Source: an uncultured Eubacteriales bacterium
Lineage (GTDB): Bacteria > Bacillota > Clostridia > Lachnospirales > Lachnospiraceae
Assembly: GCA_900319795.1 (NCBI GenBank)
Contig: ONPU01000009.1
Span: 53,958 to 117,957 of the forward strand
Direction of reading: 5' to 3'
Length of the DNA stretch: 64,000 bases
The position numbers were made by a program, and so were the translations under genes. Shown one piece after another: positions 5,465 through 38,170 of this stretch. A model generated the notes under the pieces. That model did not search any database. It was not told the DNA's origin and worked only from the letters and a program-made list of their open reading frames with translations. Within the stretch, counting starts at the first letter, position 1. The number at the start of each line of letters is the position of its first letter.

Positions 5465-5540
5465 GTTTTCTCCTTTCTTATGAAACAATTTCATATGCCG
5501 GACACGCTCCGACACAGTTTCCGATACTGCTGTAAGTGTT

Positions 5541-5569
5541 ATTGTATCAATCCGGTCACAAATTGACAC
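5541..5569 (-). promoter_or_regulatory. Predicted promoter of the importer operon
   Basis: On the minus strand GTGTCA (5564-5569) and TACAAT (5541-5546) are 17 bases apart, giving a start point near 5534 and a leader of about 70 bases. The -35 matches the consensus at only four of six positions, as expected for a promoter that needs an activator. The AGGTCA box at 5596-5612 lies about 30 bases upstream of the -35. Confidence 0.45.
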
Positions 5570-5595
5570 GCATCCCATTTTTCATAAATAAGTTA

Positions 5596-5698: not shown

Positions 5699-8101
5699 TT
5701 AGGCACCGTAAAAGATACGCATCAGCGTGATTTCATTAGGAAGAAGGTTCTCTTCGATCAGCAGTTCACCGTCCCGGCTTTCCATTTTCTGGATCATCAT
5801 ATTCGGCTGACTTGCCCGGCGGATATAGTGAAGGTCATTTCTGGACAATTCCTCTTCATAGCCGAGGTCATCCCAGATCTTCATTACACTGCCGAGCTGG
5901 TCATTGATCCGGTACACCTTCACGCGGTAGGTTCCGTTTGTAACCCCTTCCAGCTTGATCCGAAGATGAAGGGTCTTCCTTCCCTCGTAGTATTTCCACA
6001 TGGCGGAGCGTTCCATCTCTGTTTCCGCCGTCAGATAATAGTTATAATTGAGAATCTGCTGGTTATGGCAGACAATCGCGTAATTGTCGTGAAGGTCCGA
6101 CGTAATCAGGCAGTTCCCGTCATGTCCTATGTAATAAGGGAACAGGCGGCTCAGGAAATTGAACGCGAAGGCCGCCGGCTTCATGACGGTATCTTTTGTC
6201 AAAAGTCCCGTACCTCCGAAGAGAAGCTCCGGCGTATCGTAACTGGCATACTGCAGGTCACTTCCCGCGCCATAGGCCGCGTCCGAAACCTTTCCGTAGA
6301 TATCCAGCATATTCTTGATGATATAGGCACCTTTAAACGTGGTGTCATTGACGTAATTCCTGACGCTCGGCGTCAGGTTCCACTCTGTAAGATACAGGGG
6401 AAGATCCCACATGCCGGCTTCCGTCATCAGCGCCTTTTCACGTGTCAGAAGATGCAGCAGTGCTTCGTTGTCGGTATTTCGTTTCGCGAAACGATCAATT
6501 CCGTCCTCCCGTCTCTCATAGGCATAGAATCCGACGGAAAGAAAATCCGGACGATAGGAACTGTCATTCCATTTTTTCAGAACCTGAAGCCGCTTTTCAT
6601 GTCCGATGTCCATGCGGATGCCGTATCCGCCCACCTGGATCCGGTCGTTGCACTTCTTAATTGCCTGACGGGTCACGCGGAACAGCTGAAGATACCGGTC
6701 GGTATTGCCGTTGAGATCCGCGTTTACGCGCCAGCTTTCATCAAACCACAGCTCGAAGCGCCAGTCATCCAGAAGGTTCTGTCCGTAGCGTTTGGAAAGG
6801 TGGCGCATAAAAGCCTGCATCAGTTCTTCCCAGCGCTCCGTCGTATAGTCGTCCATCGAGATCTGCTTGTGCTCTTTTGTATTGCCTACCGTGTAATGGA
6901 TCATCCGGGGCTTCAATCCCAGCTCAATATGGGGTTTCATTCCGAGTTCCAGGATATAGTCGAGCACCGAATCGATCTGTCCGAAATTCCATGTCTCCTG
7001 ATTCGGGGAAATAAAGAACTCTTCCGTAAAAAGTCCCCAGAAGCGGACATATTCAAATCCGAGAGAGTTGTGAAGTAAAGAGAGATGCTCTCTTACGGCA
7101 GAGTGGAGCAGATTCGCGGCATCTCCGAAATTGATCGTATGGCCCCAGGTACTCTTCAGAGCATCGTAAAACTGAACGGAGAACTCTCCGCCGGCCTCGA
7201 GGACTTCCCGTTCGGCCTCTTCCGGCAGAAGCTTTTTCTCCAGCATCTGTTCCAGACGCTTTTCCAGTTCCTGCTGATGAGCCGGATCGCTGTTTTCCGC
7301 GTTTTTCAGTGCTCTCTTACGGAATTCCGAGGGCGTCTGTCCGTAGACCTTCTTAAACACTTTGTTGAAAAGTGCCGCCGACGTAAATCCGTTGTTATAG
7401 GCAATTCTGGTAATCGGTTCATCGGAATAGAGAAGGTCATCCGCCGCGTGAAGCGTCCTCACGTTCGTCAGATAACCGGCGAAGCTCATTCCGTAATTCT
7501 TTTTGAAGAAGCGGGAAAGATATCCGTTGGAAAGATAGAGTTTTTCCGAGAGATCCTTCATGCTGATCGGCTGATCATAATTGTTGTAGATATAATTGTC
7601 GATCTGGCGGAGGCGGTCTTCATAGCGGTCCCCTTCGTCACTTTTCCGCATGTCTCCGACGCGGAGCATAAAGTGGGCGATGAGATAATCCAGAATCCCG
7701 TAGCAGTCGGCAAGATAGCCCAGGGATTCCTCGTATTCCCTGTTCTCGATATAGTGCTGGAGCATAGCCCGAAGAAGCTTCCGGAGTCGTTCGTACTTGT
7801 CACTGTCAAGCGTTGAAGAATCGCACCAGAAGATCGCTTCACCGATATCGGAATTTTCCGTTACAAGTTTATAGTTGATCAGAAGACGCAGCCAGAACAG
7901 TCCGTGTGTATTCCTGTAGACATGCTTTCTGTTGGCGTTGATCACACAGACATCCCCGTCCTTCAGCCGGGAAACGCGTCCTTCAATATCCACGTCCATG
8001 GCCCCTTCCAGGACATAGATCAATTCCACGTTCTGATGAAAATGTTCCCCCTCTTTGACCTCATCCAGTATTTCCAGTCTGAAATGTTCTTTTTTGACCA
8101 T
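5699..8101 (-). CDS. AraC-family regulator fused to a GH39-like domain
   Basis: The protein has 800 residues. An N-terminal cupin sensor (HFHQNVELIYVLEG, GDVCVINANRKH) is followed by a complete AraC DNA-binding domain at about 165-270, with two helix-turn-helix units (ISMKDLSEKLYLSNGYLSRFF and ITRIAYNNGFTSAALFNKVFKK). From about 310 onward the sequence is a GH39/beta-xylosidase-like barrel. Its nucleophile motif is kept (LYLTEWNLT), but the acid/base site reads ELWFDES in place of the usual WNEP. No signal peptide is present, so it acts in the cytoplasm. It lies upstream of the importer operon on the same strand and probably activates it in response to a glycoside. The ribosome site is weak (GCGAGGTTTAA). 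Confidence 0.85.
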   Translation of the reverse strand: MVKKEHFRLEILDEVKEGEHFHQNVELIYVLEGAMDVDIEGRVSRLKDGDVCVINANRKHVYRNTHGLFWLRLLINYKLVTENSDIGEAIFWCDSSTLDSDKYERLRKLLRAMLQHYIENREYEESLGYLADCYGILDYLIAHFMLRVGDMRKSDEGDRYEDRLRQIDNYIYNNYDQPISMKDLSEKLYLSNGYLSRFFKKNYGMSFAGYLTNVRTLHAADDLLYSDEPITRIAYNNGFTSAALFNKVFKKVYGQTPSEFRKRALKNAENSDPAHQQELEKRLEQMLEKKLLPEEAEREVLEAGGEFSVQFYDALKSTWGHTINFGDAANLLHSAVREHLSLLHNSLGFEYVRFWGLFTEEFFISPNQETWNFGQIDSVLDYILELGMKPHIELGLKPRMIHYTVGNTKEHKQISMDDYTTERWEELMQAFMRHLSKRYGQNLLDDWRFELWFDESWRVNADLNGNTDRYLQLFRVTRQAIKKCNDRIQVGGYGIRMDIGHEKRLQVLKKWNDSSYRPDFLSVGFYAYERREDGIDRFAKRNTDNEALLHLLTREKALMTEAGMWDLPLYLTEWNLTPSVRNYVNDTTFKGAYIIKNMLDIYGKVSDAAYGAGSDLQYASYDTPELLFGGTGLLTKDTVMKPAAFAFNFLSRLFPYYIGHDGNCLITSDLHDNYAIVCHNQQILNYNYYLTAETEMERSAMWKYYEGRKTLHLRIKLEGVTNGTYRVKVYRINDQLGSVMKIWDDLGYEEELSRNDLHYIRRASQPNMMIQKMESRDGELLIEENLLPNEITLMRIFYGA

Positions 8102-8274: not shown

Positions 8275-8302
8275 AAAAGAGAAGGCCAAAGCCTTCTCTT
8301 TT
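8275..8302. terminator. Terminator at the end of the lyase/thiolase/ACP operon
   Basis: AAAAGAGAAGGC and GCCTTCTCTTTT form a perfect 12-bp stem with loop CAAA. T-runs occur on both strands, so it can work in both directions. It lies just past the stop of the phosphotransacylase gene (8332). The rest of the 8102-8331 gap is AT-rich and shows no gene. Confidence 0.85.
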
Positions 8303-8331: not shown

Positions 8332-9324
8332 TTACGCGCCGGCACGGATAATGAGCATGGCCACGTTGCCGAGCATTTCCTCAACAGGTGCCGATCTGGA
8401 GAAATCGCAGACAGGCTGAGCGAAGCCCTGAAGCACCGGGCCGTACGCGTTGGCATGTCCGAAGATCTGTATAAGCTTGACGCCGATGTTGCCCGCGTGA
8501 AGATTCGGGAAAATGATGATATTGGCCTTGCCCGCCACTTCGCTTTCTCTCTTCACCTTATGCTCCGCAACCGCCGGGATGATCGCCGAATCCAGCTGGA
8601 ATTCGCCGTCACACTTGATGTCGGGACGCTTCTCATGAACGATTCCCACCGCTTCGCGGACGACGTCGATCGTCTCGTGCTCTGCGGATCCGGTCGTAGA
8701 GAATGCCAGCAGCGCTACTCTCGGTTCCCAGTCCAGAAGTGTCTTGACGGTATCGGCGGAAGCAATCGCGATACCTGCAAGTTCCTCCGCGTTCGGCCAT
8801 GCGGTAATCGCGCAGTCCGCGAGACCCAGCATTTCTCCCTGAGGTCCGTCAAAGCCCGGAATTTCCGCAATTCCGAGAGACGACGGCGATGTCACGCCTT
8901 CCTGCATGCCGATCACGCTCATTGTCTCGACGATCACGTCGCCGGTGGAGCATTCCTTGCCGGCTGCGACGCAGTCCACGCGGCCGAGCTTCAGAAGCAT
9001 CATGGCGCATCTTAAGTTCAGAACCAGCTTTTTGCGGATGATCTTCTCCTTGCTGCCGATCTTCTCCATGTATTCCGCCACAAATGCCGCGATCGACTCT
9101 TCATCGTTATTGTCAAAATATTCGAAGCCTTCCGTATTCACGCCGTTCTCGGCCGCAAGAGCCTTAATGGTCTCGGGATTGCCCACCAGCACCGGAGTGC
9201 CGATCTTTTCTTCCACCACTCTGGCGCAGCACTGAAGAACCGGTACGCTTTCGCTTTCCGGGAACGCCACCCTCTTGGGATTCTTGCGGGCTTTCTCTGT
9301 CATTTTGAAAATAAAATCACTCAT
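8332..9324 (-). CDS. Phosphate acetyl/butyryltransferase-like phosphotransacylase
   Basis: The 330-residue protein belongs to the PTA/PTB family that swaps acyl groups between CoA (or another thiol) and phosphate. Family blocks include KRVAFPESES near the N-terminus, VEEKIGTPVLVGNPETI, RVALLAFSTTGSAEH, and the C-terminal NLHAGNIGVKLIQ and YGPVLQGFAQPV. The start is ATG 9324 with TAAGGAGACGAAC. Being last in an operon with butyrate kinase and an acyl carrier protein, it probably makes an acyl phosphate that the kinase converts to acid plus ATP. Whether it accepts acyl-ACP instead of acyl-CoA is open. A second family member is at 38171-39169. Confidence 0.85.
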   Translation of the reverse strand: MSDFIFKMTEKARKNPKRVAFPESESVPVLQCCARVVEEKIGTPVLVGNPETIKALAAENGVNTEGFEYFDNNDEESIAAFVAEYMEKIGSKEKIIRKKLVLNLRCAMMLLKLGRVDCVAAGKECSTGDVIVETMSVIGMQEGVTSPSSLGIAEIPGFDGPQGEMLGLADCAITAWPNAEELAGIAIASADTVKTLLDWEPRVALLAFSTTGSAEHETIDVVREAVGIVHEKRPDIKCDGEFQLDSAIIPAVAEHKVKRESEVAGKANIIIFPNLHAGNIGVKLIQIFGHANAYGPVLQGFAQPVCDFSRSAPVEEMLGNVAMLIIRAGA

Positions 9325-9349
9325 GTTCGTCTCCTTATAAATAGAATTA

Positions 9350-10510
9350 TTATTGAGTCTTCCCCTGCCTGAGCATGATGAAAGCCGCCAGTGCCGCCGA
9401 AACAAGCATGCCCACCACGTCGATCATAAAGACGTGCGTCGTTGTGGAGGACCCCAGAACCGTTCCGGCCACCGTGTTCAAAAACAGAGGGGAAATCACC
9501 TGGCCGATGCAGGTGGCGCAGGTGAAAACGCCTGATGCCATTGCCGCCGCGACAGGAGGCACCGCGTTGGAAACCTCGACCATCGCCGTGGGAACAAACG
9601 CTCCCTGTGAAAAGCCGCAGAGCAGCGACCCGGCTCCCAGAAGGATAAAATTGTCCGGGAACAGAACCAGCAAAAGCGCGCCCGCCGCAAAAGAGAGCAT
9701 GGCCGTACTCAAAGTCAGCTTCCTGGTGATTTTCGTCAGGAATCCGAGAAGAAGGCCGATAATGATCTGCGCGATTGAAAACAGGCTTGTCAGATTTCCC
9801 GCCGCGGAAGAGTTTCCGGCCAGATCGCCCTGAAGATGCATCGCGATATTCGTCGTATAACTGATCAGGAAGACATATTCCAGAAATCCGAGAAACGCGA
9901 CCTGGAACACCCGCGGATTCAGACGCACCTGATTATCGCCTTCGGGTCTCGACGCTCCCGTATCGGGAAGACAGATCAGGATCAGGATAAAACTGATCGC
10001 GCCGATAATATTGATAAAATAGGAATTCGTGAAATCAACCGCTCCCAGCCTTCCGGCACCGGCCGTCACAACCGCGATGCCCGCGCCGACACTGGCGGAC
10101 TGAACGCCCATGGCCACCACACGCTCATCGCCCGTAAACCATTCCGCGACCACCGCCGTATTCAGCGCGGTTGCGAGTCCCAGCGAGTAGCCGTAAAGCG
10201 TACGCATACCGATGAGGAGCCAGAAATTGTCCCAAAGGAGCGGTATCATACCCGTGACAAATGCCACAAAAGCCGCTGCGAGAAGAAGCTTTTTCTTACT
10301 GATCTTCGTGACAAGGACGCCGCAGACGAGGGCAAAGACCATCCCGACGAGGGAAGGCGCCGTAATCAGCATCTGGACCAGGGATGTCGGGATCTGAGGA
10401 TAGTGTTCCTGAATCTGCGCCAGTACCGGCGAAGGCCCGAACTGCAGTCCCTGCAGAAAACAAATGCACACGATTGTGATATAGATGCGGAGTTTACCCG
10501 TCTGTTTCAA
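9350..10510 (-). CDS. MFS transporter
   Basis: This is a 12-helix major facilitator protein of about 386 residues, with the cytoplasmic loop motif after helix 2 (GVLVTKISKKKLLLA) and a charged central loop (GASRPEGDNQVRLNPR). The start is uncertain: TTG 10510 has AGGGGGACAGGACTG upstream and is preferred over a GTG at 10576 that has no ribosome site. The gene lies between the butyrate kinase and phosphotransacylase genes. It may export the acid product or import the operon's substrate; the sequence does not say which. A perfect 7-bp hairpin (10548-10573) sits in the leader. Confidence 0.85.
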   Translation of the reverse strand: MKQTGKLRIYITIVCICFLQGLQFGPSPVLAQIQEHYPQIPTSLVQMLITAPSLVGMVFALVCGVLVTKISKKKLLLAAAFVAFVTGMIPLLWDNFWLLIGMRTLYGYSLGLATALNTAVVAEWFTGDERVVAMGVQSASVGAGIAVVTAGAGRLGAVDFTNSYFINIIGAISFILILICLPDTGASRPEGDNQVRLNPRVFQVAFLGFLEYVFLISYTTNIAMHLQGDLAGNSSAAGNLTSLFSIAQIIIGLLLGFLTKITRKLTLSTAMLSFAAGALLLVLFPDNFILLGAGSLLCGFSQGAFVPTAMVEVSNAVPPVAAAMASGVFTCATCIGQVISPLFLNTVAGTVLGSSTTTHVFMIDVVGMLVSAALAAFIMLRQGKTQ

Positions 10511-10547
10511 CAGTCCTGTCCCCCTTTTCCTCTTCTTACCCGGAATA

Positions 10548-10573
10548 CCGCCGGCCCAATTTACGACCGGCGG
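10548..10573 (-). other. Intercistronic hairpin upstream of the MFS gene
   Basis: CCGCCGG and CCGGCGG pair perfectly around a 12-base loop in the 133-base gap between the butyrate kinase stop and the likely MFS start. No U-run follows on the minus strand, so it is more likely an mRNA structure than a terminator. Confidence 0.35.
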
Positions 10574-10643
10574 CACCCAGAAAGGAAGAAAGCAATCCGC
10601 TGCCCTTTAATCATCCAAAGAGCAGCATGAAATCAGCTGTCTG

Positions 10644-11753
10644 TCACTCAAAATCAAACTTTTCAAAAACTTTTTTGCCGCTGTACTTCTTCAGCGGCTC
10701 TTCCCCGTCCAGCACACGGATCGCGCCGGCTGCCATCGCCTCCATCTCAAATTCGCCCGGATAGGCGGTTACGGGTGCGATAAACTCAGTCGCTTCCGTG
10801 ATCTTGGCAACCAGATCCTTGTTGTGAACCATGCCTCCGCCGAGCAGGATTCCGTCTACCTTGCCATGAAGGGCCGCCGCCATCGCGCCGATTCCCTTGA
10901 TAATCTGATAGATCATGGTGTTCCATACCATATCCGCGTAGCGGTCGCCGTTGGCAGCGCGTTCCGTCAGTTCAATCGCGTCCGAGATTCCCAGATGGCT
11001 GACGAATCCGCCTTCTCTTGTGCAGAGCTTTCGCACTGCCTTCACGTCCTTGTTCTCTCTCTCCATATAATCCAGAAGATCATAAACGGAGATCGATCCG
11101 CATCTTGTCGGAGCCATCGGGCCTTCGCCGCCGACGATATCATAACCGTCGATCATCCTTCCGGCCCTGTGCGCGGAGACCGAAATTCCGCCTCCGATAT
11201 GGCACACAACGTAATTGCACTCCTCGTATTTCTTTCCGAGTACTTTTCTGCTGTGCTGGATCGCCGTTTCTTTCAGATTCAGCGCGTGAAGATGAACGGT
11301 GCGGTATACGCCCTTGATACCGGTCATTCTTGCCAGGTCCTGAAGTTCCTCCGTATCGGGAGGATTGACGGTAAAGGCCTTTGCGCCGTAGGCTTTCGCG
11401 AATTCATTTGCCAGCTGTGTGCCGAGAGTGGCGGGATGTACGACGCCGTTCGCGCATGTACGGGCGTGCTTGAGGATCAGGTCGTCGATCTCGTAGGTTC
11501 CGCCTTCCACGCTTAAGAGTCCGCCGCCGCGACCGACAAAGGCATCCACGCCTTCCAGCGTAAGTCCTTCCTCTTTCAGGAGATCCAGAATCATATCTCT
11601 GCGGTACGGAAGCTGATCCGACATGTCTGAATACTTTGCCAGTTCGGAAGCGTCATGGGCAACATTTTTGGAAAAAATGCATGTCTCTCCGTCAAACATC
11701 GCCACTTTTGTAGAAGTGGAACCCGGGTTAATAGCAAATATCCGATATGCCAT
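10644..11753 (-). CDS. buk: Butyrate kinase-type acyl kinase
   Basis: The 369-residue protein belongs to the acetokinase/butyrate kinase family, which transfers phosphate between an acyl phosphate and ADP in the cytoplasm. Visible family motifs are AINPGSTSTKVAMF near the N-terminus, CHIGGGISVSAHRAGRMIDG in the centre and DGILLGGGMVHN toward the end. The start is ATG 11753 with AAAGGAGAGGATCCT. It follows the acyl carrier protein gene by 13 bases, which is unusual because the kinase normally sits next to CoA-dependent enzymes. With the downstream phosphotransacylase it forms a substrate-level phosphorylation module. The natural acyl group may not be butyryl. A second copy is at 47157-48269. 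Confidence 0.9.
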   Translation of the reverse strand: MAYRIFAINPGSTSTKVAMFDGETCIFSKNVAHDASELAKYSDMSDQLPYRRDMILDLLKEEGLTLEGVDAFVGRGGGLLSVEGGTYEIDDLILKHARTCANGVVHPATLGTQLANEFAKAYGAKAFTVNPPDTEELQDLARMTGIKGVYRTVHLHALNLKETAIQHSRKVLGKKYEECNYVVCHIGGGISVSAHRAGRMIDGYDIVGGEGPMAPTRCGSISVYDLLDYMERENKDVKAVRKLCTREGGFVSHLGISDAIELTERAANGDRYADMVWNTMIYQIIKGIGAMAAALHGKVDGILLGGGMVHNKDLVAKITEATEFIAPVTAYPGEFEMEAMAAGAIRVLDGEEPLKKYSGKKVFEKFDFE

Positions 11754-11766
11754 AGGATCCTCTCCT

Positions 11767-12006
11767 TTACATTTCCTCTTCTACGAGGTCAACAAGATCT
11801 CCGACTGTTTCGCACGCGGATGCTTCCTGAAGCGTAACGGCCGCTTCGAGCTCATTTTCAATTTCAGCAACAAGAGCTACCATCTGAACAGACGCGCCCT
11901 TCAGATCGTCCTTAAAGCTTGTCTCGACAGTCACGGCTGACGGATCCTGCTTGTAGGAAATCGCTACGAGTTCACATACCTTTGCTTCCAGTTCTTTTCT
12001 GTCCAT
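11767..12006 (-). CDS. Acyl carrier protein with an atypical attachment motif
   Basis: This acidic protein has 79 residues and the size and helix pattern of ACP: SFKDDLKGASVQMVALVAEIENELE aligns with the helix II region (the S at residue 39 takes the place of the phosphopantetheine serine). The usual DSL is replaced by ASV. A strong ribosome site precedes ATG 12006. It lies between the DUF35 and butyrate kinase genes, so it probably carries an acyl intermediate for the thiolase-like enzyme rather than serving fatty-acid synthesis. The second ACP (30425-30664) has the same Asp-to-Ala change. A phosphopantetheinyl transferase is encoded at 28001-28618. Confidence 0.85.
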   Translation of the reverse strand: MDRKELEAKVCELVAISYKQDPSAVTVETSFKDDLKGASVQMVALVAEIENELEAAVTLQEASACETVGDLVDLVEEEM

Positions 12007-12051
12007 GTCTTTCTCCTTGTTATTTCACCTTATTTTGATTTTTTCTATTGA

Positions 12052-12089
12052 AATGCCTCCTCCGTGAACCGCGTCACGGGGGAAGCATT
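12052..12089 (-). other. Long hairpin between the DUF35 and ACP genes
   Basis: AATGCCTCCTCCGTGA and TCACGGGGGAAGCATT form a 16-bp stem with one mismatch in the minus-strand RNA and a 6-base loop. It sits inside the operon, in the 92-base gap before the ACP gene. On the minus strand the tail is TCAATAG rather than a U-run, so it may stabilise or process the message instead of ending it. Confidence 0.5.
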
Positions 12090-12098
12090 TTTAAATCC

Positions 12099-12515
12099 TT
12101 ATTCTTCAACCAGATCGAACACGACGGTCTTATAACCGTCTCTCTGATAGATGGCTGCCTTTACCGGAAGCGGCAGTTTTCCTGCTTCCAGAAGCTCTTT
12201 CCTCTTTTTCTTGGTAATGCCGCGGACAACGCCGTTGAATCTCGAGCCTTCTTCCAGCTCAATTTCGCCGTAGGCGTATTTGCCGAGCGCCTTGTATTCC
12301 GGCTTTGAAGAAAGGGGAGCCGGCATTACGATCGAATGCATCTTCGCGTTTCCGGAGATCTCATACCATTCGGTCTCGTAGTTGCCGCAGGTGTTGCAGG
12401 CATAGACCGGCGGGAACTCCACGGCGCCGCACTTCGGGCACTTGCGTCCGAGGATCTTTCCCTCTTCAAGGGCCTGATAAAACTTTTCCGTTACTTTTTC
12501 GAGTTTGATTGCCAT
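12099..12515 (-). CDS. DUF35 zinc-ribbon/OB-fold protein, thiolase partner
   Basis: The 138-residue protein has four cysteines at 26, 29, 40 and 43 (KCPKCG and ACNTCG) forming a rubredoxin-like zinc ribbon, followed by an OB-fold. Proteins of this family bind thiolase-like enzymes and guide the acyl-carrier thiol to the active site, as in archaeal HMG-CoA synthesis and in the PhlB component of phloroglucinol acyltransferase. The gene is 17 bases from the thiolase gene, as is typical. The start is ATG 12515 with GGGAGGAACGAAAGAC. A second such protein is at 28622-29062. Confidence 0.9.
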   Translation of the reverse strand: MAIKLEKVTEKFYQALEEGKILGRKCPKCGAVEFPPVYACNTCGNYETEWYEISGNAKMHSIVMPAPLSSKPEYKALGKYAYGEIELEEGSRFNGVVRGITKKKRKELLEAGKLPLPVKAAIYQRDGYKTVVFDLVEE

Positions 12516-12532
12516 GTCTTTCGTTCCTCCCT

Positions 12533-13837
12533 TCAGTCCGCCGTACGAATGATATAAGTGCAGATGTTCTGGGCTCCGCCGTAGCCTCTCAGCATTGCGG
12601 TCTTCGGAATCTTCTTCATCTGTCCCTCGCCCGCTTCGCCGCGCATCTGATGAACCGCTTCATAGAGGTCCGCGAGACCGGACGCGGCATGAGCATGTCC
12701 GAAGGAAGTACGTCCGCCGTTCGTGTTGATCGGCTTGTCGCCGTCATAGGCAGTGCGTCCTTCGCAGATATATTTCCACCCTTCGCCATACGGCAGATAT
12801 CCGGCGATTTCCGCGGATACGAGGTGGGATGTAATGATGAAGTCGTTGGAGTAGAATACATCGATCTCTTCCGGTTTCACTCCGGTCACTTCGTAAACCT
12901 GGCGGACAGCCTCTTCGGTAGCCGTTACTTCGAAATGAGGAGTAATCGCTTCGCATGCCGCGCAGCCGACACCGAGCACTTCGATCGGCTTGTGGCTCTT
13001 GTTGCCCATATATTTGTCAACCATATCCGTCGCGCAGACGATCACGGCCGCGGCGCCGTCGCACTTGATCTCAAGGCCGCCGGCACGGAGGAAATCACCC
13101 ATCTTCGGGTTATACGGAGAACGCATGTAGTCCATTACGTCGTCATAACCGAATTCCTTCGCGAGTTCTTCGTAAGTCTTTCTCTCGATCGCGAGCGGAT
13201 TGACGGAAGCGTTCTTCCTGTTGGTGATGCACATATGATTCAGGGTATCGTCCATCTGCTCATCCGTGATTCCGCGGGTTCTCTTGTACCATTCCGCGGC
13301 ATCGTCGTAGATCAGCTCCTGGCCGGCCATGAAGCTTCTGGTGTAGCCGCGCTCATAGAGCCAGGCTGTTGTCTGGAGGAATTTCTCCATTGTCATCTTC
13401 TCACGTTTATACGGATGATTCGGGACGGCAACAGCATCACCGAATTCCACGCAGCCGGAGAGGACGCAGTTGTATTTGCCGGAGGCGACCGCGTTCACGG
13501 CTTCCTCGATCGCGTAATAGCCTGTGCAGCAGGCTTCGGAATGGTGGATGGAGGCCTTGCCCTTCATGCCGAACCAGTTCGCAACCTGGATATTGGGAGT
13601 CAGATAGTTGGAACCGTTCAGAGGAGAGGCTTCGCCATGGAAGTAGAAGTCCACATCCTTGGGGCTCACGCCGGCGTCTTCCATCGCCTTCAGAGCCGCA
13701 TAGCCGAACATTTCGCCTTCTGTCAGGCCGTTGGTCTCTTCTTTGTCCACTGTGTACATAAACGGGGTGCACCCGACGCCGATAATCGAAACGGAACGCA
13801 GGTACGGATTCACTTTAGTCTGATTCATTACAGCCAT
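12533..13837 (-). CDS. Thiolase-like acyltransferase (SCP-x/PhlC type)
   Basis: The 434-residue protein has the thiolase fold. The likely nucleophile is Cys104 in SEACCTG (Cys103 is adjacent), and the GHP-like motif reads GGRTSFGHAHAASG with His381 and His383. The last thiolase motif lacks the usual cysteine: it reads RGYGGAQN instead of C-x-GGG. This fits the archaeal/PhlC subgroup that works with a DUF35 partner and makes or breaks carbon-carbon bonds rather than a standard degradative thiolase. ATG 13837 is chosen because the frame upstream opens with a TTG. It follows the C-glycoside lyase alpha subunit gene by 21 bases. The substrate is unknown. Confidence 0.85.
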   Translation of the reverse strand: MAVMNQTKVNPYLRSVSIIGVGCTPFMYTVDKEETNGLTEGEMFGYAALKAMEDAGVSPKDVDFYFHGEASPLNGSNYLTPNIQVANWFGMKGKASIHHSEACCTGYYAIEEAVNAVASGKYNCVLSGCVEFGDAVAVPNHPYKREKMTMEKFLQTTAWLYERGYTRSFMAGQELIYDDAAEWYKRTRGITDEQMDDTLNHMCITNRKNASVNPLAIERKTYEELAKEFGYDDVMDYMRSPYNPKMGDFLRAGGLEIKCDGAAAVIVCATDMVDKYMGNKSHKPIEVLGVGCAACEAITPHFEVTATEEAVRQVYEVTGVKPEEIDVFYSNDFIITSHLVSAEIAGYLPYGEGWKYICEGRTAYDGDKPINTNGGRTSFGHAHAASGLADLYEAVHQMRGEAGEGQMKKIPKTAMLRGYGGAQNICTYIIRTAD

Positions 13838-13858
13838 GGTCGTTTTTTCCTTTCTCAA

Positions 13859-14920
13859 TTATCCTTCAATCGCGCGGCGCAGCGCTTCCTGGTGACGGCG
13901 GACCTGTTCGATATCGTCGACGATCATACGGTCGCGGAGAGACTCACCGCCTTCGTATTCCGTGCTCAGATATCCGTCATAGCCGGCCTTCTTGTAGGCT
14001 GCCACTACTTCCGGAATGGCAGTAGCTGTTTCGACATAGTCTTCATGCGTGTTGTAGCACTTCGCATGTGTATGGCAGATCCGGTCAATATTGTCGATCA
14101 GATCCTGCGGATCACTCCAGGAATATGTGTAGCTGGCCATGAGATAGCCGATGTCAGCCGGGCCCGCGCCCTTTTCCTTGAAGAGTTCGAGAAGCTTTGC
14201 CTGGCCGTTGGCATTTCTGTAATTCATATTCGCTTCGCCGAGGTTCAGAGAGTACTCGATCTTGGTGAATCCGTTCGCGACACGGTCCTCAAATGCCTCA
14301 TTGACGATCTTGATGAATTCTTCCTTCGCGCCGGCATGTCTCCACTTGTCTTCCACAACATCGGGGACTCTCTTGCAGAAGATGCCCATATCCGGGATGA
14401 ACGCGAAATAGTTGTATCTGGAGTCATTGCCGCTCAGACGATCCAGATAACCCTGTGCCCATGTGGAATTGAGCGAGAACGGAGCATGAACTTCGAGACC
14501 GATCTTGACGCCGACTTCTTCCGCGTACGCAAGGCTTCCCTCGATGACTTCGATCGGGGTGGAGACCAGTGTACGGATGCAGGAGAATCCGAGGATGGAG
14601 GCGCACTTTAAGTCGCGCTGCATCATTTCAACCTGTTCTCCGAGGCTCAGAGTACGATTGTCGTAGATATGGTTCTCAAGGAACGCGTCATAGCAGGTCG
14701 GTGTCAGGTTGTATTTCGCAAGCCATTCCTTCCACTTAGCCTGGAACTCTTCCTTAAAGATCGGGTTCGGAAACTGCTTGATCATGGTTTCCGCAAGGAG
14801 CTCAACGCCGGTCGCGCCGGTCGCGGCTGTCTCACGAAGGCAGCCTTCGAGATCCAGTTTTCCGTCGTAATAAGAATCCTGATAGCTGTAAAGAGATACG
14901 CTTCTTTTAATCTGGCTCAT
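13859..14920 (-). CDS. C-glycoside deglycosidase alpha-subunit-like TIM-barrel lyase
   Basis: The 353-residue protein belongs to the xylose isomerase-like TIM-barrel family. Likely metal ligands are Glu143 (GLEVHAPF), Asp177 (FIPDMG), His283 or His285 (ICHTHAK) and Glu321 or Glu323 (STEYEGG). His145 in the E-x-H motif matches, as I recall it, the position of the proposed catalytic base in characterised C-glycoside deglycosidases. Those enzymes cleave 3-keto-glycosides by elimination after a dehydrogenase has oxidised the sugar C3. The gene follows the DUF6379 beta-subunit gene by 15 bases, the arrangement known for the two-subunit enzyme. The start is ATG 14920 with AAGGAAGGAGTGAAGAA. Confidence 0.8.
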   Translation of the reverse strand: MSQIKRSVSLYSYQDSYYDGKLDLEGCLRETAATGATGVELLAETMIKQFPNPIFKEEFQAKWKEWLAKYNLTPTCYDAFLENHIYDNRTLSLGEQVEMMQRDLKCASILGFSCIRTLVSTPIEVIEGSLAYAEEVGVKIGLEVHAPFSLNSTWAQGYLDRLSGNDSRYNYFAFIPDMGIFCKRVPDVVEDKWRHAGAKEEFIKIVNEAFEDRVANGFTKIEYSLNLGEANMNYRNANGQAKLLELFKEKGAGPADIGYLMASYTYSWSDPQDLIDNIDRICHTHAKCYNTHEDYVETATAIPEVVAAYKKAGYDGYLSTEYEGGESLRDRMIVDDIEQVRRHQEALRRAIEG

Positions 14921-14935
14921 TTCTTCACTCCTTCC

Positions 14936-15328
14936 TTAGATTTCGAAATCCGCGTCGCAGTTGACCTGAATCGGGAACGGCATATAAGACGGGGCAATGT
15001 GCTGAAGAACGCTGATATGGTGCTGTCCCTTCGAAAGGCCGCCTTCCTTCGCCACAGTCACCTCGGCATATTCACCGAATTCCCAGCGGTAAAGCGGGCT
15101 CACCACCGTGCGGCACTCTTCGAGCGTGAATGTCTCTCCGTTTACCGTAAGGCTGACGCTTTCTCTCGGCATCTCCTCGCCGTCGATCGTCACTTTAATG
15201 TCGCGGATAATCGAGAGCGTAATGCCTCTGTAATACTGCAGCTTGAACTGAAACGCGAAGCCGCAGACGCTTCCGTCTTTTTCGACGTTTTTGAAGCCAT
15301 CCGGATTGTAAATCTGTCTTCCTGCCAT
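14936..15328 (-). CDS. C-glycoside deglycosidase beta-subunit-like protein (DUF6379)
   Basis: The 130-residue beta-rich protein belongs to DUF6379. Typical stretches are FAFQFKLQYYRGITLSI, VTIDGEEMPRESVSLTVNG and KEGGLSKGQHHI. In known enzymes this subunit covers the active site of the TIM-barrel alpha subunit and is needed for activity. It is the first gene of the operon, with AAGGAGGAAGGA upstream of ATG 15328, and faces the AraC gene at 15661 across a shared control region. The importer operon holds a paralogue at 1-457. The glycoside cleaved cannot be read from the sequence. Confidence 0.8.
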   Translation of the reverse strand: MAGRQIYNPDGFKNVEKDGSVCGFAFQFKLQYYRGITLSIIRDIKVTIDGEEMPRESVSLTVNGETFTLEECRTVVSPLYRWEFGEYAEVTVAKEGGLSKGQHHISVLQHIAPSYMPFPIQVNCDADFEI

Positions 15329-15660: not shown

Positions 15661-17946
15661 ATGAAGTCCTCATTTCTCCCGGAAAAAATCTTGCAGAGCA
15701 TTGAACACCGCAGCTTAGCCGAAGAAGGCTCTCTGTACAGCCGCAGCTGCAATCTTTTCATTACATTTGAAGGCTCCCTTGGGATTTCCGCCGGCTCCTT
15801 CCATTCGAATGAACCTGTTGTTTTCCTTTTCTCCGAAAACGAGATCATTCTTACGCCGGAGCAGACGAGCAACTATGTCCTTGTGCGGTTTGATCCCATG
15901 ATCATCGCGAAAGCCCTCGGACACTATCCGAAAGAGGAATCCGCCTGTACCCGTTTTTCATCCAGGGACGGGATCCAGTTGAGAGAGATGGTTTATTCAT
16001 TGCTTGCCACAAAGGAGGGAACCTCCCAGAATGAACTGAAATCTGCCGCCTGTGTTTACGGCATCCTCAACATTCTGAACAGGTCCCTGGAATCTTCCTG
16101 GACCATTGCTCCTTCCGCGATTCCGCTTTCTTCGCACAGGGAAAAGCTCTACCGCTCTTTGATGATCTGGATCGCGTCCCACTGCGCCTCTGACATCCCT
16201 CAGGCAGAATGCGCGGAGATATTCGGGCTTACACCGCAATACCTCGGAAAGTTCCTGCAGGAAACAACGGGAATGAATTACCGCGAATGCATACGGGCCG
16301 CCGCCCGGGAACAGCAGGAAGCTCTTCAGGTTTTTTATGAATCCGATCTTCCGGCACCGTCACCCGCTCCGGGACTCAGTATCGCTTCCGTGGACGATAC
16401 AGACAATAAGGACCTGTCCGGCCATATGAGGGAATACCATCTAAGGGCCAAGATCGATCCCCATATGAGCTTCCCGAAATTCTGGAGAACACTTATCAAT
16501 CTGGGCTATGCCGTCAATCTGCGCTCTCAGAATCTGGATTCCGCGCTCCAAAGGACCTGCGGCGAGCTCGGCTTCCGCTACGCGCGCATCTGCCGCATTA
16601 CGGACCTGATTTCGGAATCCCGTTCCCAGGGACGCTCCTTCTACGATTTCTCGGCTGTTTTCAGCCTTCTGGACTCTCTGGAAATCCACGGAATCATTCC
16701 CTTTCTGGAACTCGGGAACAAGGCGTTCCTCATTCAGGAGACAACGGATTTTTCACTGACTCCTGTCTCCCCGGTCGCGTCCAAGGATTACTATCAGCAC
16801 CTTCTGGATGTGCTTCCCCATTTCCTTCGGGCCTGCATCAATCACTACGGACAGGAAAATATCGATAACTGGTGTTTTGAAATCAGCTTCATGTACACGG
16901 ACAACGCGGAGCGCGAGCATTTCGGCATCGTACAGTACGCCGAGATGTTCCGGCGGATCTATCAGCTCATTCGGAGCTTCTCCCCTTCCTGCCGGATCGG
17001 GGGACCCGGGTTTAACGACTGGTCAGACAATTCCAAAATCCGCCAGGCCATACAGCTGCTCACTTCTTTCGGAGTGACTCCCGATTTTTTCAGCGCCTAC
17101 TCCTACCCGATCGAGATCAGCAATGAAGGCAGGTCCTCGCTCTCCGAAGAGGTAAATCTGGGCTTCGAAAGAATCAGAACGTTTACGGAAATCGTGAGAA
17201 CAATGGTTCCGGACTGTGAAATCTGGATCACGGAATTCAACTCCAACCTCTCCTCGCGCAATTACCTGAATGACTCCGTGTATCAGGCCGTCTATATCAC
17301 TAAGCTGGTTCTGGAAGTCTGCTCTTTGAAGATCAACGCGCTTGCCTATTATCTTCTTTCGGATACGCCGCTTCGCTATCTGGATTCTCTCGACTTTCTC
17401 TTCGGAGGCTGGGGGCTTCTTACGGACAGCGATACGCCCAAGCCTTCGTTCCATGCTTTCAGGCTTCTGTCCATGCTCGGGCATTACCGGATCCGCCAAA
17501 GCGGGAACGCTCTGATCACCGCCAACTCCACCGGCAGCTTTCAGATCCTCCTTTATCGCTACGAGCATCCGGCAAGTCATTTTCTTGTGGCAAATGTCTC
17601 CCGGCCGGACCTCCTTCAGCCTTTCAGGGTATTTCATTTAAATGAGGAAAGCCGTTTTCAGATCCGCATCGAAAATGCCCAGCGCGGAGTCTATATCATG
17701 AGGGAATACCGCATCGACACCATGCACTCGAGCCTGTATTCGACGTGGCGGGAATACGGATTTCTGAACCCGCCGAACCCCTCCTCCATCCGGGAACTCG
17801 AACAAAAATCGGCGCTTCTTCCGAATATCTCGGTTCAAAAGCTGGAGCAGGACGATATCTTTACGATTGAACGCACACTGCAGGGAAACGAAGTCCTGCT
17901 CATCACCATGGAGCTCTACTCCTCCCGTACCGACGCGCTTCTGTGA
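15661..17946 (+). CDS. AraC-like protein with one helix-turn-helix and a degenerate GH39-like domain
   Basis: The 761-residue protein has an N-terminal cupin-like part, then a single AraC helix-turn-helix unit at about 185-215 (AECAEIFGLTPQYLGKFLQETTG). The second unit that normally follows is missing; the chain goes into a Pro/Ser linker (ESDLPAPSPAPGLS). The GH39-like barrel keeps the nucleophile motif (WITEFNSN), but the acid/base site reads FEISFMYTD, without the WNEP glutamate, so it is unlikely to be an active glycosidase. A likely role is sugar sensing. The gene lies 12 bases upstream of a related full-length regulator. AAAGGAG lies rather far (15 bases) from ATG 15661. Confidence 0.8.
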   Translation: MKSSFLPEKILQSIEHRSLAEEGSLYSRSCNLFITFEGSLGISAGSFHSNEPVVFLFSENEIILTPEQTSNYVLVRFDPMIIAKALGHYPKEESACTRFSSRDGIQLREMVYSLLATKEGTSQNELKSAACVYGILNILNRSLESSWTIAPSAIPLSSHREKLYRSLMIWIASHCASDIPQAECAEIFGLTPQYLGKFLQETTGMNYRECIRAAAREQQEALQVFYESDLPAPSPAPGLSIASVDDTDNKDLSGHMREYHLRAKIDPHMSFPKFWRTLINLGYAVNLRSQNLDSALQRTCGELGFRYARICRITDLISESRSQGRSFYDFSAVFSLLDSLEIHGIIPFLELGNKAFLIQETTDFSLTPVSPVASKDYYQHLLDVLPHFLRACINHYGQENIDNWCFEISFMYTDNAEREHFGIVQYAEMFRRIYQLIRSFSPSCRIGGPGFNDWSDNSKIRQAIQLLTSFGVTPDFFSAYSYPIEISNEGRSSLSEEVNLGFERIRTFTEIVRTMVPDCEIWITEFNSNLSSRNYLNDSVYQAVYITKLVLEVCSLKINALAYYLLSDTPLRYLDSLDFLFGGWGLLTDSDTPKPSFHAFRLLSMLGHYRIRQSGNALITANSTGSFQILLYRYEHPASHFLVANVSRPDLLQPFRVFHLNEESRFQIRIENAQRGVYIMREYRIDTMHSSLYSTWREYGFLNPPNPSSIRELEQKSALLPNISVQKLEQDDIFTIERTLQGNEVLLITMELYSSRTDALL

Positions 17947-28000: not shown

Positions 28001-28618
28001 ATGCCGTATATCCTCTATACTGCCTTCGATCCGGAACCGCTTTCGGTTTCCGAACAGAACCGGCTCGAACACCGCCTCGGCCGCCGGCTGCTCATCCGGG
28101 GACTTGCGGAATTATACAGCGTTTCCGCGGATGAAGACCGGATCGGGGACATGCTGTCCGTGCCGGACAGCGGCAAGCCGTATCTTTCGGGATATCCCGA
28201 AATCCGCTTCAACATCACGCACTGCGCCGGTCTTGCCGCCTGCGCGTTTGATTCCGAAGAAGTGGGCGTCGACGCGGAGATGCCGGGCTATTTCCCTGAA
28301 ATCCTGATTAAAAGGGCCCTTTCTCCCGCCGAAAGGCAGCTGCTTTCGGAACGCGGGATCACGGAGGATCTCCGCAATGAGTGGTTTTACCGGCTTTGGA
28401 CGTTAAAGGAGGCCTATGTAAAAAGAAGCGGTATCGGCGTCGATACGGACCTGACCGCGTTCGGGTTTTCATTTTCCGAAAATGAAACCTCCCCGTCCGT
28501 CACCTGTACGGATCCCGGCGTCCGGTGCTTCCAGACGGCTCTCCCCACGGGACATCTTCTTTCTCTTTGTTATGCGAAAAACAGGGAAGAACCTCAGATC
28601 CTTCCCTGCTCTCTTTAA
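28001..28618 (+). CDS. 4'-phosphopantetheinyl transferase (Sfp type)
   Basis: The 205-residue protein has the Sfp/AcpT motifs: GKPYLSGYPEIRFNITHC, VGVDAE with magnesium-binding Asp91 and Glu93, and WTLKEAYVK with Lys136 and Glu137. It transfers phosphopantetheine from CoA to a carrier-protein serine. The start is ATG 28001 with AAGGGGG. It faces the second ACP/thiolase/DUF35 set tail-to-tail, with only three bases between stop codons. Because both nearby ACPs lack the normal DSL motif, this enzyme may be dedicated to them (inference). Confidence 0.85.
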   Translation: MPYILYTAFDPEPLSVSEQNRLEHRLGRRLLIRGLAELYSVSADEDRIGDMLSVPDSGKPYLSGYPEIRFNITHCAGLAACAFDSEEVGVDAEMPGYFPEILIKRALSPAERQLLSERGITEDLRNEWFYRLWTLKEAYVKRSGIGVDTDLTAFGFSFSENETSPSVTCTDPGVRCFQTALPTGHLLSLCYAKNREEPQILPCSL

Positions 28619-28621
28619 TTC

Positions 28622-29062: not shown

Positions 29063-29109
29063 TCTCTCTTCTCCTTGTAAAGCCTGTCTGTTCGGACAGA
29101 CATGTGTGC

Positions 29110-30399: not shown

Positions 30400-30424
30400 T
30401 CTTTCTTCTCCTTATCGCGTATCT

Positions 30425-30664: not shown

Positions 30665-30850
30665 CACATTTTCCTCCTGAGTTTCGTTTTTTGCCGCTCT
30701 TACGGCCTGTTTTATGAACTTACTTATCTGATGCATCCTGCCTTAATGCGGATGTTTCATTTGATGATATGAGTTTATTAAAAATGCTCCGCCGAAACCA
30801 GAACACTTCGGCGAAATCTGTTCATTTTTCCCTGATTTCCTGTATTGTGC

Positions 30851-31072: not shown

Positions 31073-31083
31073 CAACGCCCCGA

Positions 31084-31914: not shown

Positions 31915-32041
31915 ATATACCCCTCCATTCCCTCAGCTTGTATTTCCGGAAATCATTGTTGTATAATTGCAGTCGACCGGAACAATTTCGCATAGAGCGC
32001 CAATCATCATTATCGTAACGGCAAAGAGACGAAGAAAATAT

Positions 32042-32783: not shown

Positions 32784-32788
32784 AAAAG

Positions 32789-38159: not shown

Positions 38160-38170
38160 GTTTCATTTCC

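Follow-up and report, generated by a model that had tools for sequence, protein, structure and literature searches.

An eight-gene operon joining a C-glycoside lyase pair to a thiolase–DUF35–acyl carrier protein unit, a candidate for polyphenol catabolism

The window, the whole 64,000-nucleotide stretch of DNA that was analysed, contains an eight-gene operon. With modest confidence, this operon appears to be a polyphenol-catabolic unit built around a C–C cleaving enzyme that depends on an acyl carrier protein (ACP), and the acyl group would be converted to ATP by a phosphotransacylase (Pta) and a butyrate-kinase family acyl kinase (Buk). The conserved travelling unit is thiolase–DUF35–ACP with Pta and Buk; the lyase accompanies it only optionally. 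The sequence itself shows the gene content, its conservation, the fusions, the active-site residues and a flavonoid-type neighbourhood. Relatives of the module are found in many gut and rumen records, and the host is probably from the gut or rumen.

Gene content and boundaries of the operon

Profile matches on open reading frames place the eight genes on the minus strand, head to tail from 15328 to 8332. The preliminary description of this DNA gave the same order, with small gaps; read from the coordinates, the gaps from CGDB to Pta are 15, 21, 17, 92, 13, 67 and 25 bp. The operon and its flanks contain the following features.

14936–15328, minus: CGDB, beta subunit of a candidate 3-keto-C-glycoside lyase (PF19906, E 4.4e-39, 133 bits)
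13859–14920, minus: TIM-barrel alpha subunit of the candidate lyase, DgpC-like (PF01261)
12533–13837, minus: thiolase-fold C–C acyltransferase (PF22691, Thiolase_C_1)
12099–12515, minus: DUF35, rubredoxin-like zinc ribbon, partner of the thiolase (PF12172, zf-ChsH2/DUF35)
11767–12006, minus: dedicated ACP (PF00550, PP-binding)
10644–11753, minus: Buk (passes the TIGR02707 butyrate kinase cut-off, 362 vs 289 bits)
9350–10576, minus: MFS transporter (PF07690, MFS_1, E 3.8e-34)
8332–9324, minus: phosphotransacylase, Pta/Ptb family (PF01515, PTA_PTB, E 3.7e-89)
8275–8302, minus: terminator-like hairpin 3' of Pta, 12-pair stem
15661–17946, plus: GH39-domain protein, divergent from the operon (PF01229, E 1.1e-30)
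17959–20346, plus: AraC-GH39 fused regulator (PF12833 and PF01229)

The Pta start is taken to be the ATG at 9324, and the open reading frame extends to 9405. The genes of the operon are likely to share a single transcript. Their arrangement exceeds chance: the combination of thiolase, DUF35, ACP and Pta/Buk is seen repeatedly in other genomes. A further stem of 13 pairs lies between Buk and MFS (10627–10598); terminator-like sites number 9 against 8.0 expected by chance from shuffles, which is no excess. The GH39-domain protein at 15661–17946 is probably an AraC-GH39-type sensor or regulator and has no HTH match at E 0.001.

PF19906 (cut-off 27.6 bits) is the CGDB family, which we take to be the former DUF6379. 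The CGDB beta gene adjoins the TIM-barrel alpha gene, the arrangement by which C-glycoside deglycosidase genes of the DgpBC type are recognised. The TIM barrel matches the PDB sequences 8qvc_A (E 3.6e-63) and 9m3b_A, 'P581a DgpC1' (E 2.4e-36). The pair is a candidate 3-keto-C-glycoside lyase, and four additional CGDB matches occur elsewhere in the same genome. A CGDB beta subunit and a DgpC-like TIM barrel are common to this operon and the DgpBC/DfgAB C-glycoside deglycosidases. The operon differs from these systems in that the lyase pair precedes a thiolase module; neither 'thiolase' nor 'acyl carrier' appears in the main text of the Catenibacillus C-glycoside deglycosidase paper.

The thiolase and its conserved partners

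The neighbourhood sample consists of 80 thiolase relatives from named genomes, the best of 234, and per-gene counts are restricted to loci with enough sequence on hand. Among these best 80 of 234, DUF35 lies beside the thiolase in 75 of 75 such loci and an ACP follows it in 74 of 74. All 47 wide loci within the same 80 of 234 carry Pta or Buk (Pta in 44, Buk in 42), and genes for 4'-phosphopantetheinyl transferases (PPTases) occur in 12 of the 59 loci spanning 12 kb or more. CGDB is found near the thiolase in only 5 of the 80 loci (best of 234). The lyase and the thiolase chain had been described as one operon grouping; the genes do adjoin and CGDB recurs beside thiolase–DUF35–ACP genes in other genomes, but the core is thiolase–DUF35–ACP–Pta–Buk. 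The grouping is not confined to one strain. In L053, L096 and L063, CGDB lies on the same strand as the thiolase and within about 5 kb of it, with 86%, 66% and a more distant 40% identity, respectively, to the CGDB of the window.

Natural thiolase–DUF35 fusions occur in 6 of the 80 loci (best of 234) and in L031. DUF35–ACP fusions are present in L045 and L047 and DUF35–ACP–ACP fusions in L044 and L046, and these four loci also carry Pta or Buk. These fusions identify the ACP as the partner of the thiolase. The ACP has a GAS motif in place of the usual DSL, and its attachment residue, Ser39, does not vary among the 13 ACPs aligned. Pta scores below the NCBIfam equivalog cut-offs for both pta (257.9 vs 311.2) and ptb (82.2 vs 410.5).

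C103, H67 and H381 of the thiolase correspond to Cys88, His56 and His347 of PhlC (MAFFT, with a profile alignment for C103 and H67). In PhlC, replacement of Cys88 or His56 abolished activity completely (PMC6392133). C103 and H67 are kept in 14 of 14 aligned thiolases and in all 81 thiolases encoded at the 80 loci (best of 234). The His67 position is occupied by Val in BbsB and 7yvy and by Ala in a Paracoccus thiolase. Among 24 background thiolases with a residue at this position, one has His, and that one is without the Cys. In our reading, the residue at this position may mark the thiolase family. On this reading the thiolase does not fit the acyl-CoA type (BbsB, archaeal), for which a hydrophobic residue would be expected there; all 81 relatives have His. 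Thiolase-like aldolases of the Ltp2/Sal type have no usable thiolase nucleophile and catalyse through the Tyr and Cys of a YDHF/YDCY motif (PMC12329534). This type does not fit either, with the nucleophile Cys103 kept and NDF at the corresponding N331–F333.

PhlACB (PpATase) of Pseudomonas (PDB 5m3k) resembles the operon in pairing a thiolase with DUF35, and the equivalents of its Cys88, His56 and His347 are kept. It acts on C-acylated phloroglucinol via a Cys-bound acyl group (PMC6392133). Unlike PhlACB, the operon has no PhlA-like (KAS-like) subunit among its eight genes, adds ACP, Pta and Buk, and stands in a setting that looks catabolic. The window thiolase also departs from PhlC at nine of the 13 pocket positions mapped; Tyr124, His144, Tyr298, Ser349, Asp352 and Trp211 of PhlC are all replaced, with loop positions possibly misaligned. 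The thiolase is also paired with DUF35 in BbsAB (benzoylsuccinyl-CoA thiolase, PDB 7pxp) and in the archaeal acetoacetyl-CoA thiolase/HMGCS (6esq), both of which are profile matches (E 2.9e-28 and 1.2e-27, respectively). These two systems use CoA substrates and are not known to use an ACP, and BbsB differs in the Val noted above. Foldseek ranks the archaeal thiolase 7yvy first. The thiolase is best read as putatively cleaving an acylphenol or a 1,3-diketone by an ACP-dependent retro-Claisen or retro-Friedel–Crafts reaction.

A second ACP–thiolase–DUF35 module lies within the same window (30661–28622). The preliminary description mentioned neither this module nor the PPTase and FLR-like genes listed with it. 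It and the other relevant window genes are as follows.

30425–30661, minus: second-module ACP (PF00550, E 2e-08)
29110–30399, minus: second-module thiolase, 52% identical to the first; equivalents of H67, C103 and H381 kept
28622–29062, minus: second-module DUF35 (PF12172)
28001–28618, plus: Sfp-type PPTase beside the second module (PF01648, E 3.5e-13)
31084–31914, minus: ThuA-like, upstream of the second module
32830–34107, minus: Gfo/Idh oxidoreductase, upstream of the second module
34177–35016, minus: TIM barrel, upstream of the second module
46107–47069, plus: flavone reductase-like (FLR-like) ene-reductase (PDB match 7d38, E 1.8e-36)

The PPTase at 28001–28618 is the probable activator of the ACPs.

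Flavonoid-type neighbourhood of the module

FLR-like genes are present in 42 of the 80 loci (best of 234) and in 29 of the 43 of these loci that span at least 15 kb. The nearest FLR-like gene shares the thiolase strand in 39 of the 42, and in five loci among the best 80 of 234 it lies 10–17 bp before the thiolase. All 8 genomes with a close thiolase carry FLR-like genes; of the 291 other genomes, 17 do (p 7.5e-10). For each of three FLR-like proteins searched, FLR (7d38) is the sole PDB match; for the window protein at 46107–47069 this holds up to E 0.01. The window protein is 33% identical to FLR and keeps W149, H271 and I275. Among the module-side proteins these residues are kept in 46/46, 45/46 and 42/46, respectively, and G106 in just 20/46. 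Identity to FLR is 27–33% in 44 of the 46 and 59% and 46% in the remaining two. The FLR alignment ends at residue 278 of 310 for the window protein and at 295 for the L087 protein, which leaves FLR's last residues uncovered; the last residues of the C-terminal tail are needed in FLR. These genes encode candidate flavone reductases. A second FLR homologue of F. plautii did not reduce apigenin (PMC8398226).

The gut flavone pathway (E. ramulus, F. plautii, C. butyricum) consists of FLR, Fcr and phloretin hydrolase. FLR-like genes also stand beside the C–C cleaving unit described here, and in L087 one is accompanied by a BaiCD-type OYE reductase. In contrast to that pathway, phloretin hydrolase (PF18089 kind; profile built here) is absent from all 80 loci (best of 234), and cleavage would give a thioester, not a free acid. 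A phloretin hydrolase match is present in 4 of the 8 module genomes (weak in G154), and replacement of this enzyme by the module is therefore not general. The 99%-complete genome G292 combines FLR-like genes with two thiolase modules and gives no phloretin hydrolase match. G110 has FLR-like and BKACE genes and neither the module nor phloretin hydrolase.

BKACE, to which the phloroglucinol enzyme TAL belongs, is a family found in 5 of the 8 module genomes and 40 of 291 others (p 0.0025). Four genes of a phloroglucinol-type cluster lie contiguously in G067 and in G292; G036 is without BKACE and cyclase. The window's own genome (82% complete) has no match to BKACE, cyclase or phloretin hydrolase. 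The phloroglucinol cluster of Clostridium scatologenes (PGR, DPGC, TfD and TAL, with thiolase and kinases) differs in being CoA-based and in using other C–C cleaving enzymes; the main text of its description (PMC10470551) makes no mention of 'acyl carrier'. The neighbourhood of the module points to polyphenol catabolism.

Proposed pathway and alternatives

We infer the direction, substrate, acyl group and ATP yield of the pathway as follows. The CGDB/TIM-barrel lyase would take the C-linked 3-keto-sugar off an aryl C-glycoside, and FLR-like and other flavin enzymes encoded outside the operon would reduce the aglycone. Cys103 of the thiolase, aided by His67 and His381, would attack the carbonyl beside a phenol or inside a 1,3-diketone; the phenol or ketone would depart and the acyl group remain on the thiolase. 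DUF35 would deliver holo-ACP, whose phosphopantetheine would accept the acyl group. Pta would convert acyl-ACP (or acyl-CoA following exchange) to acyl phosphate, and Buk would convert this to ATP and the free acid. The best-fitting substrate would be a dihydrochalcone or other acylphloroglucinol, and the hydrolytic step of phloretin hydrolase would instead yield ATP. Dihydrochalcones are the likeliest substrate, an assignment with clearly less than an even chance of being right.

The preliminary description had joined lyase, ACP-linked C–C chemistry and ATP formation in one pathway. This remains plausible, now recentred on thiolase–DUF35–ACP–Pta–Buk. Its proposal that the chemistry takes place on an ACP-bound acyl substrate is probably incorrect. 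Because of the fusions and the PhlC-like active-site residues, the ACP is suggested to accept the acyl group released from a polyphenol-derived ketone. It knew of no described pathway joining these parts, and none of this kind turned up in the open-access articles searched either. We know of acylphenol C–C cleavage only as hydrolysis. The more general idea of carrier-protein catabolism, in which a thiolase–DUF35 with a dedicated ACP carries out retro-Friedel–Crafts cleavage of an acylphenol and a dedicated Pta and kinase yield ATP, is held tentatively, at a little under even. If true, gut and rumen anaerobes would draw energy directly from the flavonoid skeleton, and ACP would be an acceptor in catabolism. 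Several observations count against the proposal: the PhlC pocket differences and the lack of a PhlA-like gene, the low identity of most FLR-like proteins to FLR with G106 often replaced, the F. plautii homologue inactive on apigenin, the phloretin hydrolase matches in 4 of the 8 module genomes, the gene set of G110, and the lack of BKACE, cyclase and phloretin hydrolase matches in the window's own genome and of BKACE and cyclase in G036. Moreover, the butyrate-kinase membership of Buk suits a short acyl group over an arylpropionyl group, sugar genes surround the second module, and a SnoaL-like gene occurs in some loci.

The short acyl group would be accommodated if the thiolase cleaved a cyclic 1,3-diketone from a reduced phloroglucinol- or resorcinol-type ring to an oxo-hexanoyl-ACP, from which Pta and Buk would form ATP and an oxo acid. 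This reaction would use the same His/Cys pair, and Fe–S flavoproteins and FAD_binding_2 reductases adjoin the unit (c6 in 27 and c8 in 20 of the 80 loci, best of 234). Ring opening is nonetheless unlikely, as the known pathway uses the hydrolase DPGC for it (PMC10470551) and a phloroglucinol-type cluster with cyclase coexists with the module in G067 and G292. An improbable alternative is the biosynthetic direction, in which Buk and Pta spend ATP to convert an acid to acyl phosphate and acyl-ACP and the thiolase, like PhlACB, C-acylates a phenol or other nucleophile to give a secondary metabolite. In principle these reactions can run either way, PhlC and MucABC are acyltransferases, ACPs are typical of biosynthesis and PPTases lie nearby. 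A SnoaL-like 'polyketide cyclase' family gene occurs in 4 of the 80 loci (best of 234), but it is the only polyketide-type enzyme among the recurrent neighbours scanned. The C-glycoside lyase in the same gene row, the FLR-like reductases at 42 of the 80 loci (best of 234) and the spread of the module across many gut and rumen records also argue against biosynthesis.

Placement of the second module with ThuA, Gfo/Idh and TIM-barrel genes, and of the first with the lyase, would fit cleavage of an opened 3-keto-sugar (a 1,3-dicarbonyl) to acyl-ACP and a shorter ketose, with ATP from the sugar. A ThuA-like gene follows Buk in L050 and L052, and some match to sugar-type genes of the window is present in 19 of the 80 loci (best of 234). 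In the sequence available, which is short for many loci, the other 61 of these 80, and 30 of the 42 FLR-carrying loci, lack any match to the sugar-type genes searched for, namely CGDB, TIM-barrel, Gfo/Idh and ThuA of the window. This very improbable reading would also need an open-chain 3-keto-sugar, and the PhlC-type His points to a phenol. The acyl group is likely to come from the aglycone and not the sugar, because FLR-like genes are so frequent and most loci carrying them lack sugar-type matches. Least probable is ordinary short-chain metabolism, with an acetoacetyl-type thiolase, Pta, Buk and an ACP from fatty acid synthesis. Butyrate producers commonly have Pta and Buk, and the Foldseek ranking of 7yvy is consistent with this reading. 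However, a better-scoring ACP is present elsewhere in the genome (C11), the module ACP accompanies the thiolase in 74 of 74 loci (among the best 80 of 234) and paralogues show ACP domains fused to DUF35. The active-site His is missing from the acyl-CoA thiolases checked, and the association with FLR-like genes would be left unexplained.

Under the favoured polyphenol-catabolic reading, the free acid may exit via the MFS carrier. This transporter probably carries the substrate or the product acid, and similar MFS genes lie near the module in L096 and L081.

The operon and its conserved core

The eight head-to-tail genes of the preliminary description are present, with gaps of 13 to 92 bp between them:

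15328-8332, minus strand: C-glycoside deglycosidase beta (CGDB, DUF6379), TIM barrel, thiolase, DUF35 protein, ACP, butyrate kinase (Buk), MFS, phosphotransacylase (Pta)

The eight genes are likely on a single transcript. A terminator-like stem lies 3' of the Pta gene and another lies between Buk and MFS, and such stems are not commoner in the window than in shuffled sequence. CGDB scores 133 bits with its profile, where the cut-off is 27.6, and the solved-structure relatives of the TIM barrel include DgpC1. The Buk is over the butyrate kinase equivalog cut-off. The Pta meets the Pfam model and is below the NCBIfam pta and ptb cut-offs. The family names of models PF19906, PF18089, PF05853 and PF04199 are confirmed by the database. 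The operon is flanked on both sides by proteins with a GH39 glycosidase domain, three in all (5699-8101, 15661-17946 and 17959-20346); they are probably regulators or sensors, and two of them carry fused AraC helix-turn-helix domains. A solute-binding protein (DUF3502) at 3695-5578 has a long Glu/Ala/Pro-rich repeat after its leader.

The thiolase is present in 11 of 299 genomes of the family (E 1e-30), and eight of these, counting the source genome, contain a close thiolase (72-100% identical). Around the eight close thiolases, the thiolase, DUF35, ACP and Pta genes recur, with one ACP partly masked (L036) and one DUF35 fused to the thiolase (L031); Buk is nearby in five. Set against the family count, a class-wide search (E 1e-60) finds the thiolase in the source genome alone among 391, so its distribution is patchy.

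A single scan of named genomes yields 234 thiolase relatives, the best 80 of which, all at least 75% identical, were compared as loci. Many of these loci end at contig ends, two (L054 and L057) are from one genome, and three (L086, L088 and L099) probably repeat three of the eight close-thiolase genomes, G075, G154 and G036. Among these best 80 of 234, DUF35 accompanies the thiolase in 75/75 loci and the ACP in 74/74 loci with enough downstream sequence. Of the 47 wide-flank loci, 44 contain Pta, 42 contain Buk, 39 have both genes and all 47 have at least one of the two. A DUF1097 protein occurs in 24 of the 80 loci, often directly behind Buk (e.g., L107:14179-14724). Lachnospiraceae are named in the titles of 33 of the 80 records; the other taxa include Blautia, Pseudobutyrivibrio, Oscillospiraceae, Ruminococcaceae, Eubacterium, Clostridium and more. 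The isolates include Pseudobutyrivibrio xylanivorans, Eubacterium plexicaudatum ASF492, Schaedlerella arabinosiphila and Mediterraneibacter glycyrrhizinilyticus. Many of the isolate names suggest the rumen or gut as source; a few, such as Clostridium caldaquaticum, do not.

Active site of the thiolase and partnership with the ACP

PhlC, the thiolase-like subunit of the Pseudomonas Friedel-Crafts acylase PhlACB, is reported in PMC6392133 to act through Cys88; the enzyme lost its activity when Cys88 or His56 was replaced, and His347 is a conserved thiolase residue. Using the PhlC sequence verified against PDB 5m3k, these residues align by MAFFT with C103, H67 and H381 in 14/14 thiolases, and their equivalents are found in all 81 thiolases of the 80 loci. 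A profile alignment gives the same mapping. The His56 position is Val in BbsB and 7yvy and Ala in a Paracoccus thiolase. The background consists of 31 frames from 29 other Thiolase_C_1 loci of the phylum, taken as the best match per genome and not as a random sample. The catalytic Cys is kept in only 15 of these frames; 24 have a residue at the His56 position, and the single His among them is in a frame without the Cys. Among eight paralogues, six have His at this position, one Lys and one Val. At L048:8565-12317 (genome G227), two thiolase-DUF35 pairs stand in tandem. The DUF35 frame of the second pair has just 97 residues, and one of the thiolases has Lys in place of His at the PhlC His56 position. 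ACP-like and MFS genes lie behind these pairs, and two Pta genes and one Buk gene lie before them.

Nine of 13 mapped PhlC pocket positions differ in the window's thiolase and no PhlA-like gene is present among the eight operon genes, which counts against full membership in the PhlC group. Foldseek with the predicted thiolase model (mean pLDDT 74) does not separate PhlC from other thiolases. An Ltp2/Sal-type aldolase is disfavoured, since the nucleophile Cys is kept.

The thiolase and DUF35 form a single protein in L031 and in six of the 80 loci (one of the six, L086, is probably the same contig as L031). In paralogous loci that contain Pta or Buk, DUF35 is fused to one ACP domain (L045 and L047) or to two (L044 and L046). 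Of the 59 loci that span 12 kb or more, 12 contain a PPTase gene, and an AcpS-type gene directly follows Pta in seven of the 80 loci. The attachment Ser is kept in 13/13 aligned ACPs. The fusions and the PPTase and AcpS-type neighbours argue that the ACP serves this thiolase. These sequence comparisons are strong evidence for the operon ACP as partner of the operon thiolase and strongly support joint action of thiolase, DUF35 and ACP. Fatty acid synthesis as the sole role of the ACP is rejected, given the 74/74 association, the DUF35-ACP fusions and a better-scoring ACP elsewhere in the genome.

Flavonoid-type genes near the module and the proposed reaction

Apart from the core genes, the neighbour met most often is an FMN_red protein (35 of the 80 loci by clustering). 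Its cluster representative matches a single PDB sequence up to E 0.01, namely 7d38, which is the flavone reductase FLR (PMC7862272). By profile, FLR-like genes are present in 42 of the 80 loci and in 29 of the 43 loci of at least 15 kb. The nearest FLR-like gene is on the thiolase's strand in 39 of the 42 and no more than 6 kb away in 33. Five loci, from four genomes, have it 10-17 bp ahead of the thiolase frame, a distance measured between open frames with putative starts. Identity to FLR is 27-33% in 44 of 46 FLR-like proteins near the module, and 46% and 59% in the other two. Of the residues reported to matter in FLR (PMC7862272), W149 is kept in 46/46 of these proteins, H271 in 45/46, I275 in 42/46 and G106 in only 20/46. 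Plasmid searches found no close relative of the thiolase (best 32% identity) or of the FLR-like protein (best 38%). Also recurring near the module are Fe-S and fumarate-reductase-like flavoproteins, a PucR regulator, and MFS and DUF1097 proteins; a SnoaL-like protein is in four of the 80 loci. The window's sugar-type genes have no match in 30 of the 42 FLR-bearing loci.

In locus L087, the genes run in the order FLR-like, a 152-residue protein that matches no Pfam family, an OYE-type reductase, Buk, thiolase, DUF35, ACP and Pta, followed by an AcpS-type gene (c16). The enzyme Fcr is presumably of the OYE type. It was formerly taken for an enoate reductase (PMC8398226). The C. butyricum gene order FLR-Fcr-Phy (PMC11868195) is like that of L087, where the module stands in the place of Phy. 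A phloretin hydrolase profile, built from seven of eight fetched proteins with one over-long frame left out, finds no gene in the 80 loci. The same profile finds a phloretin hydrolase-type gene in a paralogous locus (L047:17192-18016, genome G230), about 6 kb from a set of thiolase, DUF35-ACP fusion and Pta.

FLR-like genes (E 1e-25) are present in 25 of the 299 family genomes, including all eight with a close thiolase (p 7.5e-10) and nine of the 11 with any thiolase. Phloretin hydrolase is found in 21 of the 299 and in four of the eight module genomes, with a weak match in G154. BKACE, to which the phloroglucinol enzyme TAL belongs, is found in 45 of the 299 and in five of the eight (p 0.0025). 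PGR is taken here to be an SDR. Genomes G067 and G292 contain contiguous SDR, cyclase, 3-hydroxyacyl-CoA dehydrogenase and BKACE genes, a set that matches in make-up the C. scatologenes phloroglucinol cluster (PMC10470551). Genome G292 (99% complete) contains FLR-like genes, this phloroglucinol-type cluster and two thiolase modules, of which the second shows neither Pta nor Buk within the stretch seen. Phloretin hydrolase is not found in it, and the module would take the missing place. A counter-example is G110, with FLR-like and BKACE genes and neither module nor phloretin hydrolase found. In G036 the module is present and BKACE and cyclase are not found; in the source genome (82% complete), BKACE, cyclase and phloretin hydrolase are not found.

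There is good support for a role of the thiolase, DUF35 and ACP in the catabolism of polyphenols. In the best-supported reading, an acyl group from a C-C bond of a polyphenol-derived ketone would pass to thiolase Cys103 and then to the ACP, and Pta and Buk would recover ATP from it. The reaction would run in the direction of cleavage and Pta would use acyl-ACP. Among several candidates for the bond cleaved, the one that joins aryl and acyl parts in a dihydrochalcone is, tentatively, the favourite. Phloretin hydrolase cleaves hydrolytically, a reaction expected to give no ATP. To our knowledge, the way in which gut and rumen anaerobes benefit from flavonoids beyond the sugar is an open question; C-C cleavage tied to substrate-level phosphorylation would, if true, explain a growth benefit. 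It would also be a clear test case of an ACP in catabolism and of a retro-Friedel-Crafts chemistry that conserves energy and would be of use in biocatalysis. As a marker gene, the His67 thiolase accompanied by DUF35 and ACP would point to polyphenol degraders, including genomes free of phloretin hydrolase. The parts of the module are known; no description of their assembly was recognised in the open-access literature searched, and the available part of PMC6548854 contains nothing on the module genes.

C-glycoside lyase genes and the second module

The preliminary description had joined the lyase and the thiolase in one pathway. The close pairing recurs, with CGDB near the module and on the same strand in L053, L063 and L096; in L053, CGDB is 86% and the TIM barrel 83% identical to those of the window. 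As a conserved pair it is rejected, as CGDB is in only five of the best 80 of 234 loci, and the lyase is thus a real but optional partner. Its position ahead of the module fits the acyl-transfer reading, because phloroglucinols with C-glycosyl and with C-acyl groups are related compounds, and the keto form of the ring would serve in either cleavage.

A second module lies elsewhere in the window:

28001-35016: ACP (30425), thiolase (29110) and DUF35 (28622), behind ThuA-like, Gfo/Idh and TIM-barrel genes

An Sfp-type PPTase gene converges on it. In L041 (partial gene) and L043, relatives of this module have FLR-like genes no more than 10 kb away. The window's own FLR-like gene (46107-47069) is 53% identical to that of L083. 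The contig holds four of the genome's five CGDB matches and all three FLR-like matches, and by this concentration it looks like a polyphenol-glycoside island.

A CGDB-TIM barrel fusion of 483 residues, a one-piece C-glycoside lyase, lies outside the window, about 1.2-2.6 kb to its left (L028:13339-14790, G000:C8). It adjoins another TIM barrel/CGDB pair, which extends to the left edge of the window (CGDB at 113-454), and a GH3, a carboxylesterase and an FLR-like gene. At 46107-49685, the FLR-like gene, a second butyrate kinase and a LarC-type nickel insertion protein adjoin one another. At 37425-39976 (minus strand), an acyl-ACP thioesterase gene is directly downstream of another phosphotransacetylase gene.
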